A stretch of DNA of 32,623 nt from a virus. How positions within the stretch are numbered: position 1 is the stretch's first letter; each line of letters starts with the position of its first letter. The stretch covers positions 1 to 32,623 of the IMG/VR virus record IMGVR_UViG_3300050821_003637; one strand, written 5' to 3'. Below, one piece after another: positions 9,963 to 32,623 of this stretch. The position numbers and the translations under genes were made by a program. The notes under the pieces are model-generated. The model was given only the letters and a program-made list of their open reading frames with translations, was not told the DNA's origin and made no database searches.

Positions 9963-9982
9963 AACTGGTTTTTTATCCAGTT
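9963..9982. terminator. Short hairpin at the end of the initiator unit
   Basis: AACTGG and CCAGTT form a six-base-pair stem around an eight-base A/T loop and contain the stop codon of the 128-aa gene. No T-run follows on either strand, so it would be a weak terminator at best. Its position, between one unit and the promoter of the next, is what makes it worth recording. Confidence 0.3.
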
Positions 9983-10359
9983 GATAGTAGCTTGTCCGTT
10001 TTAAGTTCTTTTCTCAACTTAGCAATAGCGGCTTTTCCTTGCCTTCGTATCTTGGGTATCCGTACCCTCTTTGATTTTGCCTCACGGGCTTTGATAACGG
10101 CATGCGTTGCTACCAGGGCGCCGTGTACGCTCGTGACGCCATCTTTTGTGCTCAGTTGGTAGTTTTTAAAGACTGCATCAGATATCCACGCTGCGCGGCT
10201 CCTAGGCTCGTTAGCGAGCATGTTCATCAGGGATATCTTTTGTTGGACGTACTTGCGCCCGTACTTGATGAACCATGCGTGGTAAGTACTGGGCTTCACA
10301 TTGAGTAATGTGAGTTTGTCTTCTAGTGAAGGTAATCGCTTTTTCTTGGGTTCGGTCAT
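9973..10359 (-). CDS. Basic protein downstream of the replication initiator
   Basis: 128 aa, strongly basic. It starts inside the last codons of the initiator gene (overlap of about four bases), so the two are co-translated. The N-terminus has a helix-turn-helix-like stretch: LEDKLTLLNVKPSTYHAWFIKYGRKYVQQKI, where TYHAWF resembles the recognition helix of terminase or transposase HTHs. The C-terminus is rich in Lys/Arg (KAREAKSKRVRIPKIRRQGKAAIAKLRKELK). A DNA-binding partner of the initiator is the best guess, for example a helicase-loader substitute or a regulator. No lambda P or DnaC motif (Walker A) is present. Confidence 0.65.
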   Translation of the reverse strand: MTEPKKKRLPSLEDKLTLLNVKPSTYHAWFIKYGRKYVQQKISLMNMLANEPRSRAAWISDAVFKNYQLSTKDGVTSVHGALVATHAVIKAREAKSKRVRIPKIRRQGKAAIAKLRKELKTDKLLSTG

Positions 10360-11204
10360 GACATGGTCCTTGCTGGTTTTAAATGGGCGCTTATGAGCGA
10401 TGAAAATACATCCTTGGCCTCTTTTGGCATAGATGGGGATTTATTTCTTTTCCTTTCGTCAGCTTTGGACGTATCTGCTAGGACATGAGAGGCGTGAGTG
10501 CTTGGTATCTCTGTTTGCACAGTCTTTGTGGGTTCTGGATAGTTTTGTTCAATTGCCTTTATCGTAAACCCTGCTAGATTGCTTCTAGGTTTAGACTTGG
10601 CTAAAGCTATCTTTCTTTGAAGGTACTCTTTCTTATGTAGCTTGCTTATATTGGTTGCTACTGTCCTATCGATTCCAATCTTTTCCATCTCTTCAATAAT
10701 TTCTAAATCAACAGCAACAGGTCCTTCACTAGGTATGGGTATATGTTGTTGTTGTTTAATAGATATAGTCTTCTTACAACTTGGTGTTCTTATATGCGTT
10801 GATTTCCCACGCGTGGGTTTTCCACGCATGGCTTGTGGATAACCCATGCGTTGATTTTCAACGCATGGCTTGTGTATAACGTGAACATTGCTAGTTACAG
10901 TAGGAGGGTTTTTGAATATTGAAAAGTAATAATCTCTTCCGGTAGAGCCTTGTAGAAGGTAAAGATATCCGTGGGTTCTTAACTCCCCAGTAACTTTTCG
11001 CCACTTGTAATCTCCCCACTTAAAGTGTTTTTTTAGTTGCGTGGGTCGAGGTTTCCAGGTTGACACATGACTTCTAAGATACATCCCCAGCGCTCTTGCT
11101 TCTGCTGAGAGATTTTCGTTTCTTATAAATTCATTTGGTATTTGTGCGTATGGGACTTCTGTGTTATCTAAGTGAAATACTGGTTCTAATTCTGAAATGC
11201 TCAT
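10356..11204 (-). CDS. Winged-helix replication initiator (lambda O / RepA-like role)
   Basis: 282 aa; GAGG lies eight bases before the ATG. Residues about 15-90 form a winged-helix domain of the phage and plasmid replication-initiator type: IPNEFIRNENLSAEARALG, YLRSHVSTWKP, QLKKHFKWGDYKWRKVTGEL, then GYLYLL. Residues about 105-140 are a basic, low-complexity linker whose DNA carries dyads and two DnaA boxes. The C-terminal part (IEEMEKIGIDRTVATNISKL, KSKPRSNLAGFTIKAIEQNY) resembles the region after the HTH in RepA-like proteins. It probably binds the origin inside its own gene and recruits host helicase. There is no polymerase or primase in the genome, so host replication proteins must do the synthesis. 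Confidence 0.7.
   Translation of the reverse strand: MSISELEPVFHLDNTEVPYAQIPNEFIRNENLSAEARALGMYLRSHVSTWKPRPTQLKKHFKWGDYKWRKVTGELRTHGYLYLLQGSTGRDYYFSIFKNPPTVTSNVHVIHKPCVENQRMGYPQAMRGKPTRGKSTHIRTPSCKKTISIKQQQHIPIPSEGPVAVDLEIIEEMEKIGIDRTVATNISKLHKKEYLQRKIALAKSKPRSNLAGFTIKAIEQNYPEPTKTVQTEIPSTHASHVLADTSKADERKRNKSPSMPKEAKDVFSSLISAHLKPARTMS
10796..10879. other. Probable replication origin: three dyads and two DnaA boxes
   Basis: Inside the initiator gene lie three dyads built from half-sites GCGTKGR: 10796-10812, 10811-10827 and 10844-10868. The last is a perfect palindrome with 11-base arms around TTT. After the second and third dyads come TGTGGATAA (10834-10842) and TGTGTATAA (10871-10879). On the minus strand these read TTATCCACA and TTATACACA, both exact matches to the DnaA box TTATNCACA. 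Units 10811-10843 and 10848-10880 are 37 bases apart and nearly identical over 33 bases. An AT-richer stretch at about 10740-10795 could be the unwinding region. The arrangement resembles the lambda origin, which lies inside gene O. Confidence 0.7.
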
Positions 11205-11219
11205 GTATATGTCCTCAAG

Positions 11220-11237
11220 TAAGTAATTAACTACTTA
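11220..11237. promoter_or_regulatory. 18-bp palindrome in the initiator leader
   Basis: TAAGTA and TACTTA flank six bases, 16 bases upstream of the initiator ATG. It is a possible operator for autoregulation by the initiator or another repressor. It lies next to the larger nested dyad 11235-11305. Confidence 0.4.
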
Positions 11238-11305
11238 ACGCTTGACTTGGGTTACACCATGAGTTATTGTGGTTCTCATGGTGAAACTGCCTTCGGAAGC
11301 GTTAA
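11235..11305. repeat. Nested double inverted repeat upstream of the initiator
   Basis: The outer arms TTAACGCTT (11235-11243) and AAGCGTTAA (11297-11305) are perfect. The inner arms CACCATGAG (11255-11263) and CTCATGGTG (11275-11283) are also perfect. Both dyads have nearly the same centre (11269-11270). The inner dyad encloses the -10 box of a rightward promoter, so it may be an operator. On the other strand the whole element would fold in the leader of the initiator mRNA. Confidence 0.65.
11242..11270 (+). promoter_or_regulatory. Rightward promoter opposing the initiator gene
   Basis: TTGACT (11242-11247), a 17-base spacer and TATTGT (11265-11270). A start near 11277 would give a short RNA ending at the terminator 11328-11364. 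The -10 box lies in the loop of a perfect 9-base dyad, so repression at this site is likely. Confidence 0.5.
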
Positions 11306-11364
11306 ACCTAATGTTGTCTAGGGAACGAAAAGCCTCGTTACATCCAATGTGTCGGGGCTTTTTT
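11277..11364 (+). ncRNA. Possible short regulatory RNA upstream of the initiator
   Basis: Promoter and terminator bracket about 88 bases with no reading frame. The RNA would be antisense to the leader of the leftward initiator gene if that mRNA starts above 11300. This is the layout of plasmid copy-control countertranscripts. Alternatively the terminator acts as an attenuator for the gene at 11421, or the unit is simply the end of readthrough from elsewhere. No known RNA family is recognised, so the function is inference. Confidence 0.4.
11328..11364 (+). terminator. Rho-independent terminator
   Basis: AAAAGCCTCG (11328-11337) pairs with CGGGGCTTTT (11353-11362) over ten base pairs with one G-U, around a 15-base loop that can itself pair ACA with TGT. 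A run of six T (11359-11364) follows. It is the best terminator in the window. On the other strand the stem has one mismatch and ends in TTTT, so it may also stop leftward transcripts. Confidence 0.85.
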
Positions 11365-11420
11365 ATGTGTCCTTCTAGAGACATGTTGTTACACAATAGC
11401 TGAATAGAAGGGATAGATCA

Positions 11421-11687
11421 ATGAGTCATCCAGATAAAGAAAGGTTTCTTATCTGTAATAAAGTCAATAATGAAGAAAAATTTAAAGCAATAAGCGATAT
11501 GTTTGATTGGTTTTGGGAGTGGTCAAAAGAACAAGATCAAACAATGCGCAGTGTGTGCAGTATGATAGATTCTCTAATGGATGATTTTAAGTCACTAGAA
11601 AGCACGCTGGGAGAAGAAATAAAATCTTTACAGAGCACAAATAAAAAATTGATATGGGCTCTTACACACAGAGGTGATAAACCTTAA
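11421..11687 (+). CDS. Coiled-coil hypothetical protein (88 aa)
   Basis: 88 aa, with GGGAT upstream of the ATG. It is acidic at the start, Trp-rich in the middle (MFDWFWEWSKEQDQTMRSV), then a long coiled coil (SLESTLGEEIKSLQSTNKKLI). It stops three bases before the end of the leftward cluster (11691), a tight tail-to-tail meeting that supports both. The strong terminator at 11328-11364 lies just before it, so it needs its own promoter or readthrough. Function unknown. Confidence 0.6.
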   Translation: MSHPDKERFLICNKVNNEEKFKAISDMFDWFWEWSKEQDQTMRSVCSMIDSLMDDFKSLESTLGEEIKSLQSTNKKLIWALTHRGDKP

Positions 11688-18332: not shown

Positions 18333-18553
18333 TAATAAGAACCTTTACCTCTGTTAGAACCTGGCATGCCTAATGGCTCCATTCGGCCCATAGCACGTTC
18401 GTTCTTAGAGTGTAACGGTCCGTAGACAGAGATACAATGAGCATGAGCTCTGTGCATAATGTCACTACCTACAAATGCGGCTACTTCAGAGTCACCCATA
18501 GCATTATGAGCATACATCTTCCAGCCTTGAATGTTTCCAGCGGTTGCAGTCAT
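18332..18553 (-). CDS. His/Met-containing hypothetical late protein (73 aa)
   Basis: 73 aa. I use the ATG at 18553, which has AGGA eight bases upstream and directly follows the previous stop, rather than a longer frame to 18637. It starts MTATAGNIQGWKMYAHNAMG. It has a cluster of His (HRAHAHC) and a Gly/Arg/Met end (RAMGRMEPLGMPGSNRGKG). The composition resembles the 129-aa protein two genes before it, so they may work together. Function unknown. Confidence 0.6.
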   Translation of the reverse strand: MTATAGNIQGWKMYAHNAMGDSEVAAFVGSDIMHRAHAHCISVYGPLHSKNERAMGRMEPLGMPGSNRGKGSY

Positions 18554-18554
18554 G

Positions 18555-18773
18555 TTAGTATTCCTGTGTATGTACGTAGTTGGGGAATATCCTGACCATA
18601 TCAGCATGCCAGGGTTGGGTTTGCTTTTCACTACCAACGGTTAACCGTTGGTCGATAGCTGGGTATACGTCATGGAAACTACCAATCATATACGCGCCAC
18701 GGCCTTCATGCACCATGGCGGGATTGTCATTTACATAGATTTCACCTTTAGCTTTCGCGTCAGATAATCTCAT
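18555..18773 (-). CDS. Hypothetical late protein (72 aa)
   Basis: 72 aa with an AGAGAGGT site six bases before the ATG, overlapping the previous gene by 14 bases. The sequence (MRLSDAKAKGEIYVNDNPAM, GRGAYMIGSFHDVYPAIDQR) looks like a small alpha/beta fold. No family is recognised. It lies between two His/Met-rich genes in the same unit. Confidence 0.6.
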   Translation of the reverse strand: MRLSDAKAKGEIYVNDNPAMVHEGRGAYMIGSFHDVYPAIDQRLTVGSEKQTQPWHADMVRIFPNYVHTQEY

Positions 18774-19149
18774 TATATACCTCTCTTGGCATAGCTATGT
18801 CTTGGTTTGTAGCATTATGACGGCGTGCTTCATGTAGCGTTTGTATCTCATGCGGCGTGCTCATGGCGCGCAACACAGAGCCAAATTCAGCACCTTCGTG
18901 ATGGGCTTTATAGGCCGCTTCGATGTTCATGTGGATTTGGCCTGGGGTAGCTTCAACTAGCACGCCATGCTCCCCCATTTTGCCTCTGTGGGTAGCGTGG
19001 ATAGCTGCGGCTCTAGCTAGGTGTGAACCTTTCATGTGGTCGCCGGTCATCATATGAGCATTGTGGCCATCTGGGGCTTTTTGGGCATGTGACATACCTA
19101 GGCCACCGGCATGGTGACCCATTGGATATTCGCCTACGGTGTTTTTCAT
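18760..19149 (-). CDS. His/Met-rich protein (129 aa)
   Basis: 129 aa from the ATG at 19149, which has AGGAG eight bases upstream. It carries about 16 His and 10 Met. The first half is dense in His, Met and Gly (MGHHAGGLGMSHAQK, HNAHMMTGDHMKGSHL), as in metal-binding proteins. The second half is more ordinary and helical (IHMNIEAAYKAHHEGAEF, EIQTLHEARRHN). Binding of Cu, Ni or Zn is a reasonable test, but the sequence alone cannot prove it. A disordered virion protein is the alternative. Confidence 0.6.
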   Translation of the reverse strand: MKNTVGEYPMGHHAGGLGMSHAQKAPDGHNAHMMTGDHMKGSHLARAAAIHATHRGKMGEHGVLVEATPGQIHMNIEAAYKAHHEGAEFGSVLRAMSTPHEIQTLHEARRHNATNQDIAMPREVYNEII

Positions 19150-19188
19150 AACAATTTCTCCTTGCAAGGTTACTTTAAGTGTAGAACA

Positions 19189-29194: not shown

Positions 29195-30019
29195 TTATAG
29201 CCTCCCTATCAAGCGATTGCGTTGTGCCTCAGTGAGTCTTGTACCGTTATAGCCAGGACTGCTACCGACATTGGTCTGATTCAAGAAGATGCCACTCATC
29301 TCTGAGAACGGAACCTGCCCCAATATGCTGCCAAAAAGCTCAATGTTGCTGCGAGATCTAGACTGTTTAATCTCTCCACGCTTACCAGCTAATCCAGCTC
29401 TAGTACCAGCAAAACCGGCCTTTGTTTGCAGATTTGCAGCATTAAGTTGATTTATATTGCCTGACACCTGATTATAAGCGGCTACTCGATTTAGTTCATT
29501 AGCTTTGGATTTAGCATCATAGAGTGCCGCCTGACCCTTCAACTGTAGGTTCCTGAAGTTCTGGCTTATAGCTCTTGCTCGTTCATCCTCGCCGTAAGCA
29601 TGGATAGAAGCCTCTTGAACGGCCCTAGCTGACCCTTGCCCTTGCGCCTGTCCTCTAGCGCCCATAATGGCCCTCTGTGACGATAATACGCCTCTAAGCT
29701 CTTCACTATTGATAGCGCTCGCTTCGGTGAACGCAAGCGCCTCTTGCTCCATTCTAGTCTTCAAAAAGCTCTTTTCTATCCCAAGCGCCTCTTCCATATT
29801 CTTATAGTTCTCATCAGCTATCCCATAACCTTCACGGGCAATCGATAATGCTTGAGCATTATTTAGGTCTGACGCTTGTTCAAAGGCCGATAAATCAGTT
29901 TCATAGTTGTTAATGATATTCTCTTGTTTGCGTAGGAACCTTTGCTCTTTGCGATTCTTATAGATATTGGCACCGATGCCAGCGGCTTGAGCTGCGAGTA
30001 GAAAAAGTGGTAGTGCCAT
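29195..30019 (-). CDS. Internal virion protein (T7 gp14-like)
   Basis: 274 aa from the ATG at 30019, which overlaps the tail tube B stop as TAATG; a longer frame to 30112 is only read into that gene. A hydrophobic N-terminus (MALPLFLLAAQAAGIGANIY) precedes a long Ala/Gln-rich helical region (EALGIEKSFLKTRMEQEALAF, MGARGQAQGQGSARAVQEAS). In T7 the matching protein inserts into the outer membrane at the tip of the ejection channel. Order (gp12, 14, 15, 16) supports the call. Confidence 0.82.
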   Translation of the reverse strand: MALPLFLLAAQAAGIGANIYKNRKEQRFLRKQENIINNYETDLSAFEQASDLNNAQALSIAREGYGIADENYKNMEEALGIEKSFLKTRMEQEALAFTEASAINSEELRGVLSSQRAIMGARGQAQGQGSARAVQEASIHAYGEDERARAISQNFRNLQLKGQAALYDAKSKANELNRVAAYNQVSGNINQLNAANLQTKAGFAGTRAGLAGKRGEIKQSRSRSNIELFGSILGQVPFSEMSGIFLNQTNVGSSPGYNGTRLTEAQRNRLIGRL

Positions 30020-32532
30020 TAGGTTAACTCCAATATGTATGAGATACCTAGGATGGTCATCGGTAGAGGATTCATTTGAGATATCGTGATGTTGTATTGG
30101 GTGTAGTCCCAATCCTCCATCATGTTATATTCATAAACCCCACTAACTGGCTGACCCAATTGAGCTGGTATCTGCTGTGGTATAATTATAGGAAACCCTT
30201 GGATTGTTGCTCCAAGCGTGTTGTAGCAATTGATATAAAGTCCACGAATGTGTTTTCTCTTATAAAGGTTGCTAGGCGTACCTGGAATATTACCAATAGG
30301 TAAAAATTGAATAGTAGAGTTAAATGGCATGCCATAGGTTACGTTTTGGGATACCACTGGCAACGTAAGAACATTATTAAATATTTGAATATTCCCAAGT
30401 GATACACCGTCAGCAAACACACCTACAAAATCACCATTCAAATAATTCGCATTATTGATAACATTACTATTAAGGTTGTTAACAGTCGTTGACGCATCGG
30501 TATTAAGCGTAAAGTCTAATTCTTCTAAAAACTGTGCGTGAGTATCCACGTTATCTATAACGTTTGAGTTGTTGCCAGCATTAATGATTGTGAATGCGTT
30601 TATGTTAGATTCGGCATCAGATTGAAGCGCATATACTCTAAAGTTATTAGCGTCTGTTGCATTAGCAAAGAAGTATTGTGTTGTGTTTATGGGAGGGACA
30701 GTTAGTGGTAATACACCTGTAGTTGTAAAGTAGATAATATTACTGTGACCAATTTCTAATCCATGTCCGTTAGCTTGTAAGGTATTGTTAACCGCGTTGA
30801 ACCCTGTGATCGCAACAGGCGCTTGAGGCACCAAATAATGTCTATCAACAATAAAGAACACGCGCCCTATTGAGCTTGTGATATGATTGAAGCCACCTGT
30901 GAAGCCAAAAGTAACGTTATCAAAAGTGTATTGAGCTGTAGCATTAGTCCAAGCCGCTATGTTCTGTTCGCTTAATGTTTGAAAGATAGCAAGTGAGCCA
31001 TCCGAGTTTACAAACATTGCATAGTACCCATCGGTAAAATTAGGGTCTGTGAAGGCTGCCATATCTACAGGCGATATGATTAGAGAACTGCTGGCTATGG
31101 ATATATTGTTCAAAACATATGAACTTTGGGCTATATCCCACGTCATATTCTTAACATTATTGCCAGATTTATCGACATAGATAATCTGATTATCAATGAA
31201 CAAAGGCTGTAGATTGCTCGTGCCATCTTTGTTTTGTTCAGTTAAAACAAAGTTAGTTGGAGTTAATGGTTGCTCTGTAGCGAATGGTGTGAAGTAGTTG
31301 CCGGTATTGGTATGGACTGTTAGGGTCTTACCAGCCGTTAGAGCTTGGACAACATTGGTCTGTGCGGCTGATGGATACCACGATATAGCATCGCTCGCTA
31401 ACGTTTCGGAATCATCAAAGTTATAAGCGACATTAACAGCACTAAGCCATACTCCGTTAGGAATGGAAGGTGACCCACCAAAGACCAATCTATTCTGAAA
31501 AAAGCTAACACATACTGGCCATCCACGTGCTGTACTCCAAGCTGGTTCACCCAAGAAAGCAAATGCACCCATTATCGCATTTGTGTTGGTAAAGGACTGA
31601 ATCGTAAACCCTGTTACAACTGTCGTGCTATTAAATGTTTGTATTCTGAATATACCGCCATTGCCGGTGAAGAGGCCTCCAACCATGGCGGCGGTAAATA
31701 TTGGGGCGCTGGCGGTAATTGTAACGCCTGTGCCGCTCGTGGCGCTTGGTGTGAATGTGAGGGCACTATACCCACCATTGAAGTCAAAAGCGGGTTCTGC
31801 AATGAAATTTATGGCTGTAAATGTCCAAGTGTTTAGGATATTAACTGTGCTAGTAACGCCCGCCGCTGAGAATGTGTAAAACCCTACTCCGCTTTTAGCT
31901 GCATCAGCAGTTGAATAAATTTGAATGGTTGTGGTTGTTATGAACAGAGCATAGTAAGTTCGCCCTACATATATTTGTGGATTAGATGTTGGCAGTACGC
32001 CGGTTGTGCTAAACGTAATGGGTAAAACTTGCCCAATAACACCGGGCGTTGTGATGGTTAAAGTTTGAGCTGCACCTAATCCAACAATTGCATTGGGTGC
32101 ATTTGCGCTACGAACCAATTGGTATGGATTGAAGTTTAGATTGGCGGTGATGATGCGATCGTTAACCTGCGCCCATCTTAAGTTAACTATATCTTCTTTA
32201 TTGTATGGCGTTGCAAAACTTGCAACCAATATGTCTTCTAGGAATATAACGGTTTGATTGGTCTGCCATACCAACAAATAAATAGCTGAATCATCAAAAG
32301 TTAATGTAGATATTTCTGTGTATTCAGGGTTTGTGTATGGATTAATGTTTGGGTCTAGTGTTGCTATATACCTTGTCCCAAATCTTCTTTGGATGCCGCC
32401 TTGCGGAATAACAACGCAATTCATTGCGGTCTTCACAGAGCGATAGTATTTATCGAAGTCAGTGCGGGCGTAGGCTCTAGGGTCTAATACCCCGTTGGTG
32501 AAGCATGCCTGGTCAAGGTTAACATATGGCAT
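30019..32532 (-). CDS. Tail tubular protein B (T7 gp12-like nozzle)
   Basis: 837 aa from the ATG at 32532, where TAATG joins it to tail tube A; the frame is open to a TTG at 32547, but that lies inside the upstream gene. The N-terminus is typical: MPYVNLDQACFTNGVLDPRA, YARTDFDKYYRSVKTAMNCV, PQGGIQRRFGTRYIA. Most of the rest is beta-rich with propeller-like strand repeats (LPITFSTTGVLP, IIYFTTTGVLPLTVPP, FFANATDANNFRVY). It forms the nozzle of the short tail to which fibres attach. Length is close to T7 gp12 (about 790 aa). Confidence 0.9.
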   Translation of the reverse strand: MPYVNLDQACFTNGVLDPRAYARTDFDKYYRSVKTAMNCVVIPQGGIQRRFGTRYIATLDPNINPYTNPEYTEISTLTFDDSAIYLLVWQTNQTVIFLEDILVASFATPYNKEDIVNLRWAQVNDRIITANLNFNPYQLVRSANAPNAIVGLGAAQTLTITTPGVIGQVLPITFSTTGVLPTSNPQIYVGRTYYALFITTTTIQIYSTADAAKSGVGFYTFSAAGVTSTVNILNTWTFTAINFIAEPAFDFNGGYSALTFTPSATSGTGVTITASAPIFTAAMVGGLFTGNGGIFRIQTFNSTTVVTGFTIQSFTNTNAIMGAFAFLGEPAWSTARGWPVCVSFFQNRLVFGGSPSIPNGVWLSAVNVAYNFDDSETLASDAISWYPSAAQTNVVQALTAGKTLTVHTNTGNYFTPFATEQPLTPTNFVLTEQNKDGTSNLQPLFIDNQIIYVDKSGNNVKNMTWDIAQSSYVLNNISIASSSLIISPVDMAAFTDPNFTDGYYAMFVNSDGSLAIFQTLSEQNIAAWTNATAQYTFDNVTFGFTGGFNHITSSIGRVFFIVDRHYLVPQAPVAITGFNAVNNTLQANGHGLEIGHSNIIYFTTTGVLPLTVPPINTTQYFFANATDANNFRVYALQSDAESNINAFTIINAGNNSNVIDNVDTHAQFLEELDFTLNTDASTTVNNLNSNVINNANYLNGDFVGVFADGVSLGNIQIFNNVLTLPVVSQNVTYGMPFNSTIQFLPIGNIPGTPSNLYKRKHIRGLYINCYNTLGATIQGFPIIIPQQIPAQLGQPVSGVYEYNMMEDWDYTQYNITISQMNPLPMTILGISYILELT

Positions 32533-32623
32533 TATCCACCTATCCAAGTACCAACAAAGCGATTGGATATGATTGGACTTGAAGCGAGTGGGGTTTGTGG
32601 CCTATTCTGTGCATCGGCGGCCA
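32527..32623. repeat. 97-bp direct terminal repeat, right copy
   Basis: Identical to bases 1-97. Shows that the sequence closes on itself. It carries the tail tube B start and the last 29 codons plus stop of tail tube A. Confidence 0.95.
32532..32623 (-). CDS. Partial second copy of tail tubular protein A 3' end
   Basis: This is the end of the tail tube A gene (whole copy at 6-590) repeated by the terminal redundancy. It is not a separate gene. It shows the true junction: the A stop and the B start share TAATG at 32530-32534. Confidence 0.85.
   Translation of the reverse strand, partial: AADAQNRPQTPLASSPIISNRFVGTWIGG

Follow-up and report, generated by a model that had tools for sequence, protein, structure and literature searches.

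A probable DnaA-box-containing replication origin in the linker region of a phage initiator gene

The initiator gene and the elements in its linker

The window, by which we mean the whole 32,623-nt stretch of IMGVR_UViG_3300050821_003637, carries on its minus strand a 282-aa gene, P0001, the product of which is laid out as an N-terminal winged-helix part (HTH_36/DnaD-like), a basic linker and a C-terminal helical part. The features of the locus are as follows.

9973..10359, minus strand: 128-aa gene from the ORF list, overlapping the initiator stop by 4 bp
10356..11204, minus strand: replication initiator gene P0001, 282 aa, assigned by phrog, HTH_36 and tblastn matches
10734..10794, unstranded: candidate unwinding element, from nearest-neighbour stability
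10794..10814, unstranded: dyad 3, sense strand ACGCGTGGGAAATCAACGCAT, sharing ACGCGT with dyad 2
10806..10879, minus strand: two 37-bp units (10879-10843 and 10842-10806), each DnaA box + AGCC + dyad + GGG, from TRF and unit comparison
10809..10829, unstranded: dyad 2, sense strand ATGCGTGGAAAACCCACGCGT, from sequence
10834..10842, minus strand: exact DnaA box TTATCCACA, proximal to the unstable DNA, from sequence
10846..10866, unstranded: dyad 1, perfect, sense strand ATGCGTTGAAAATCAACGCAT, putative initiator-binding iteron
10871..10879, minus strand: exact DnaA box TTATACACA, distal to the unstable DNA, from sequence
10905..11165, minus strand: DNA-binding winged-helix part, residues about 14-100, from the span of family matches and alignment
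11205..11420, unstranded: divergent intergenic region upstream of the initiator, holding the inverted repeat 11251-11287

The first 100 residues of P0001 matched phage replication initiators (phrog_1456, E 2e-8; phrog_4221, 4e-7), the DnaD-like helicase loader family phrog_186 (2e-6) and also phrog_4707, and tblastn returned phage replication initiation proteins and TP901-1 Rep at 26-38% identity. Since the score against Pfam HTH_36 (18.2 bits) lies under the curated 25-bit cut-off, the family assignment rests on the PHROG and tblastn matches, by which P0001 is classed as a phage winged-helix initiator of the TP901-1 Rep/DnaD-like, HTH_36 kind; unlike lambda O, it matched these DnaD-like/HTH_36 families and none of the PHROGs labelled O-like. 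The sole other copy of P0001, found in IMGVR 3300021088_000129 by an IMG/VR search, is identical over the compared stretch, and no further close relative was present in 84,980 genomes or in the PLSDB plasmids. A search by sequence returned no PDB relative of P0001, its AlphaFold2 model from the single sequence (mean pLDDT 46) was left out of the analysis, and the alignment of distant initiators was too variable to support a pattern scan.

Family searches gave no convincing match for the neighbouring 128-aa gene, to a lambda P-like loader or otherwise, and no lambda P homologue was found in the genome; the gene might encode an initiator partner or loader. On the other side of P0001, the count of promoter-like matches around 11205-11420 was not above expectation. 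A 13-bp inverted repeat (GTTACACCATGAG/CTCATGGTGAAAC) lies here at 11251-11287, between the initiator and an 88-aa gene at 11421, and is a possible operator.

Re-examination bore out the coordinates and content given in the preliminary description, namely two exact DnaA boxes, six GCGTKGR half-sites, three dyads and a 37-bp period, and the boxes, half-sites, A-tract-centred dyads and repeat all fall inside 84 bp of 10356-11204(-). Read on the sense strand (codons 109-141), the first unit is TTATACACA-AGCC-ATGCGTTGAAAATCAACGCAT-GGG and the second TTATCCACA-AGCC-ATGCGTGGAAAACCCACGCGT-GGG, after which AAATCAACGCAT completes dyad 3, overlapping dyad 2. The half-sites start at 10796, 10811 and 10848 on the plus strand and occupy 10806-10812, 10821-10827 and 10858-10864 on the minus strand. 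Extended to 10844-10868, dyad 1 has perfect arms of 11 bp, and no other perfect dyad in the window is as long. All three dyads have an A4 or A3 tract in the middle and the centres are spaced 37 and 15 bp apart, so that the dyads do not all lie on one helix face; because the palindrome ACGCGT is common to dyads 2 and 3, these two cannot be filled completely at the same time if they act as simple, independent sites. TRF ranked the repeat (10806-10880) as the top tandem repeat of the window, with a score of 115 against 55 for the next. The two units differ at 5 of 37 positions, and within the box and its next four bases they differ only at the degenerate base of the DnaA box. The boxes are exact with respect to the general consensus, which may not be that of the host, and TTATNCACA occurs three times in the 32.6-kb window, as the two in-gene boxes and once at 18451. 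Directly 3' of the dyads in the sense direction, the stretch 10734-10794 is less stable than any other 60-mer of the gene, and the 60-mer starting at 10740 is among the least stable 3.6% of the genome.

Among 200 Markov-1 genomes simulated with the dinucleotide composition of the window, neither two boxes within 60 bp nor six half-sites within 80 bp occurred (0/200). When the codons of the gene were permuted synonymously, none of 50,000 permutations combined a box pair with four or more half-sites in 90 nt, against six in the gene itself, and six half-sites within 80 nt were likewise never reached (maximum 5), while two exact boxes anywhere in the gene arose in 2% of such permutations (p about 0.02). 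As copies within a single duplicated unit, the boxes are not independent and amount to roughly one observation. As 37 is not a multiple of 3, the reading frame shifts from one unit to the next and the encoded peptides (VIHKPCVENQRMG and YPQAMRGKPTRGK) differ, which makes the 37-bp repeat a feature of the DNA and not of the protein. A protein repeat was rejected on this ground, and chance because the synonymous permutations never came near the observed array. Protein coding does not explain the boxes, the dyads or the repeat.

A complete genome with a T7-type virion

The first and last 97 bases of the record are identical (1-97 = 32527-32623), an exact terminal overlap by which it is a closed or circularly permuted, complete phage genome of about 32,526 bp. 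T7-type tail genes at both ends of the record (6-590 and 30019-32547) join across the overlap, the window encodes a T7-type connector (Head-tail_con, 2.6e-74), and further T7-type virion families, tail tube and internal virion proteins, were matched (phrog_332, 394, 376 and 342). Every ORF longer than about 300 aa either is a terminase or virion gene or lies among such genes. No ORF for an RNA polymerase, a DNA polymerase or a primase-helicase was found in the complete genome by ORF list and family searches, and the DNA-metabolism matches other than the initiator comprised only Erf, an SSB-like protein and a VRR nuclease; no tRNAs were found in the window. A T7-type replication module was rejected since the genome is without a polymerase, and with no polymerase candidate among its ORFs the phage must rely on the replisome of its host. 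T7-type virions in genomes that lack T7-type replication genes are not rare. The 32.6-kb Vibrio phage 284E43-1 pairs such a virion with an integrase and has no annotated polymerase, and several portal and terminase relatives of the phage studied here have O-like or HTH_36 initiators with in-gene repeats, so the description of this combination of virion and replication module as an unusual mix was not supported.

Elsewhere in the genome, 7171-7758 (+), on the strand opposite to its neighbours, encodes an outer-membrane beta-barrel protein (OMP_b-brl, 2.9e-9; OmpA_membrane, 1.9e-5); a search of the genome set gave no relative of this OmpA-like gene, which looks like cargo that could alter the host surface. 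A perfect 20-bp palindrome (ACCAACGGTTAACCGTTGGT) lies at 18633-18652, and the ORF at 18760-19167 (-) encodes a product rich in His, Met and Gly for which there was no family match.

Initiator loci of related phages

The relatives by portal were G004 (L083) and G005 (L084), with 55% and 52% portal identity to the phage of the window, and those by terminase were G006 (L085) and G010. All four have winged-helix initiators other than P0001, those of G004, G005 and G006 matching O-like families. The initiator gene of G004 has repeats at codons 116-138 (three 22-nt copies with a GTGTCA-CCA-TGACAC dyad), that of G005 at codons 99-113 (two GTGCACTSAGTGCAC dyads) and that of G006 at codons 119-148, with synonymous-permutation p values of 0.003-0.01 for the three; the linker repeats of the window, at codons 109-134, are comparably placed. 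G010 has only a dyad at codons 131-143 (p 0.04). Exact DnaA boxes were absent in and near the initiator genes of all four relatives, a comparison that spans different initiators rather than one orthologous initiator. Comparison with related initiator genes, which the preliminary description had proposed, thus showed repeats in the same linker region, whereas the boxes were missing from 4/4 genes. With linker repeats in the same place and no boxes, an in-gene origin looks from these sequences like the norm of the group, with swapped initiators, and the boxes, as far as sequence comparison goes, are particular to the phage of the window within the portal and terminase group. In G004, G005 and G006, the winged-helix initiators are non-orthologous, and each comes with a set of dyads or repeats peculiar to it at these linker codons, an apparent exchange of initiator-plus-origin cassettes. 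A search for relatives of the G004 initiator recovered only itself.

A different picture was obtained with more distant Streptococcus phages that have related HTH_36 initiators, in which the iterons are closely preceded by TTATCCACA in five of the six loci fetched (phiJH1301-1, phi891591, Javan268, Javan42 and IPP15). The order in L074, L075, L076 and L078 is TTATCCACA, iterons, AT-rich DNA and a second TTATCCACA about 250 bp on; L077 has the first box only. As in the window, the same initiator domain goes with iterons about 30 bp apart, an exact TTATCCACA before them and an AT-rich stretch after them. The streptococcal initiator, by contrast, is about 120 aa long and ends before the iterons, so that the origin lies mostly behind the gene, and the second box, in 4/5, is about 250 bp off and not in each repeat. 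Around and after the initiator stop codon, L074-L078 carry the iterons about 30 bp apart and a TAATAATAA-rich stretch that resembles DnaA-trio sequence. No DnaA box was present in the fetched initiator loci of TP901-1, Oenococcus and Paracoccus.

Eleven initiator loci were scanned for DNA stability in 50-bp stretches. In seven of them, namely the window, G010, TP901-1, Paracoccus Pyei1 and all three streptococcal phages included, the minimum was found past the repeats at a distance of up to about 110 nt; such an arrangement was not seen in G004, G005, G006 or Oenococcus. A scan of viral contigs for paired DnaA boxes turned up at least 120 stretches; among the matches listed, L149 alone has an HTH gene of initiator type nearby, so that P0001-type initiators are not characterised by paired boxes. 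Immediately behind this HTH gene, at 11215-11310, L149 has DnaA boxes and near-boxes in an array that resembles a chromosomal oriC.

A lambda-like layout with a possible role for host DnaA

The lambda ori consists of iterons and an AT-rich tract in the middle of gene O, and in lambda and Stx phages, as in the window, the iterons are dyads with a central A4 or A3 tract (PMC7466680). Lambda also uses the host replisome, and DnaA both footprints two DnaA-box-like sites near pO and stimulates transcriptional activation of the origin (PMC3985674). The window differs from lambda, with four, and the Stx phages, with six separate iterons, in having three dyads of which two overlap, and in having an exact DnaA box inside each repeat unit. 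TP901-1 Rep shares a homologous N-terminal domain (31% over 99 aa), and the linker repeats of its gene, at codons 104-114, precede the gene's stability minimum; the fetched TP901-1 locus, however, has no DnaA box, and its 15-bp direct repeats are weakly supported (p 0.09). The TP901-1 origin has been established experimentally. The staphylococcal plasmids pSK41 and pPR9 (RepA_N or HTH_36 initiator) likewise combine a DnaD-like winged-helix N-terminal domain, in pPR9 an HTH_36, with an ori in a dispensable central linker, although no DnaA boxes were detected in those plasmids according to a review (PMC5703833). The iteron plasmids P1, F, pSC101 and RK2 resemble the window in joining Rep iterons, DnaA boxes and an unwinding element (PMC4980987). 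Their initiators are different, that of F, RepE, having two WH domains. As far as is known, the origin of these plasmids lies outside the rep gene.

That the element is a replication origin within the linker part of its own initiator gene, as had been proposed from the sequence, is very probable and well supported, by the dyads, the repeat, the adjacent unstable DNA, the winged-helix initiator, a complete genome without a polymerase of its own and the relatives' repeats in the same linker. Given such an origin, the boxes are likely to be functional. It is best read as a theta origin on the plan of the lambda ori, probably assisted by host DnaA. The winged-helix N-terminal domain of P0001 would bind, probably in dimeric form, to the three dyads with their central A-tracts, host DnaA would bind the two boxes preceding them, and the two proteins together would strain and open the unstable DNA at 10734-10794, at which the host helicase and replisome would be loaded, a step proposed because the phage makes no polymerase. 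We infer helicase loading and the part of DnaA as well as binding and opening, the last two from lambda (PMC7466680, PMC3985674), pSK41 (PMC5703833) and DnaA-dependent iteron plasmids (PMC4980987). For this reading as a whole, an in-gene origin with initiator on the dyads, DnaA on the boxes, joint opening and host replisome loading, we estimate a probability of roughly 0.65.

The part given to DnaA is a plausible proposal. The perfect boxes and the order of box, dyads and unstable DNA, as in the streptococcal phages, speak for it, and the four portal and terminase relatives without boxes against it. An in-gene origin served by the phage initiator alone, with the box-like 9-mers being either the flank of a composite 37-bp site or a duplicated chance match, would accommodate those relatives, at least three of which have in-gene repeats without an exact box, as well as the box-less loci of TP901-1, Oenococcus and Paracoccus. 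It also agrees with the 2% of permutations that yielded two exact boxes and with their location in one duplicated unit. Both 9-mers, however, are perfect and differ only at a base that DnaA tolerates, and in streptococcal phages whose initiators are related the identical TTATCCACA, the iterons and the AT-rich DNA follow one another in the same order, which leaves this account at about one chance in five.

There is considerably less to be said for the dyads being a control element of initiator expression, either an operator or an mRNA hairpin, with the boxes letting DnaA repress and no origin present. Initiators often autoregulate and a dyad was called terminator-like on the plus strand, though such calls were no commoner than in shuffles; the hairpin has no clean T-run, on which ground a terminator was rejected, the site is 325 nt into the gene rather than at a promoter, unstable DNA adjoins it, and the repeats of the relatives occupy the same linker. 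We consider such control improbable, and hardly more so the view that the boxes titrate or sense host DnaA, timing replication to the state of the host, without a part in origin opening. In mobile elements, DnaA boxes can serve regulation instead of initiation. In lambda, moreover, what DnaA stimulates is transcriptional activation of the origin (PMC3985674), but two boxes are few for titration and these sit inside the repeat unit beside the dyads. Chance or a protein repeat, even in a low-constraint basic linker, can practically be dismissed in view of the 50,000 permutations, the different reading frames and the rank of the repeat as the top tandem repeat of the genome.

The DnaA-assisted in-gene origin that we favour is a variant of the lambda/TP901-1/pSK41 type, set apart by a DnaA box in each repeat unit; the kind of origin is fairly ordinary and the DnaA-box twist uncommon. 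More speculatively, the unit may be a composite iteron of one DnaA box and one initiator dyad, on which DnaA and initiator would alternate along one array. We hold this only tentatively. If true, initiation would depend jointly on the phage initiator and host DnaA, and the streptococcal HTH_36 phages would represent a second, perhaps independent, recruitment of DnaA to this initiator family. No tie to DnaA has been reported for the in-gene origins of pSK41-type DnaD-like initiators, and the boxes raise the question of whether a phage without a polymerase ties its initiation to host DnaA as iteron plasmids do. An origin of about 150 bp and its initiator would be held compactly in one gene, and since the origin thereby travels inside the initiator gene, the comparison suggests that phages of one virion type keep swapping whole initiator-plus-origin cassettes.
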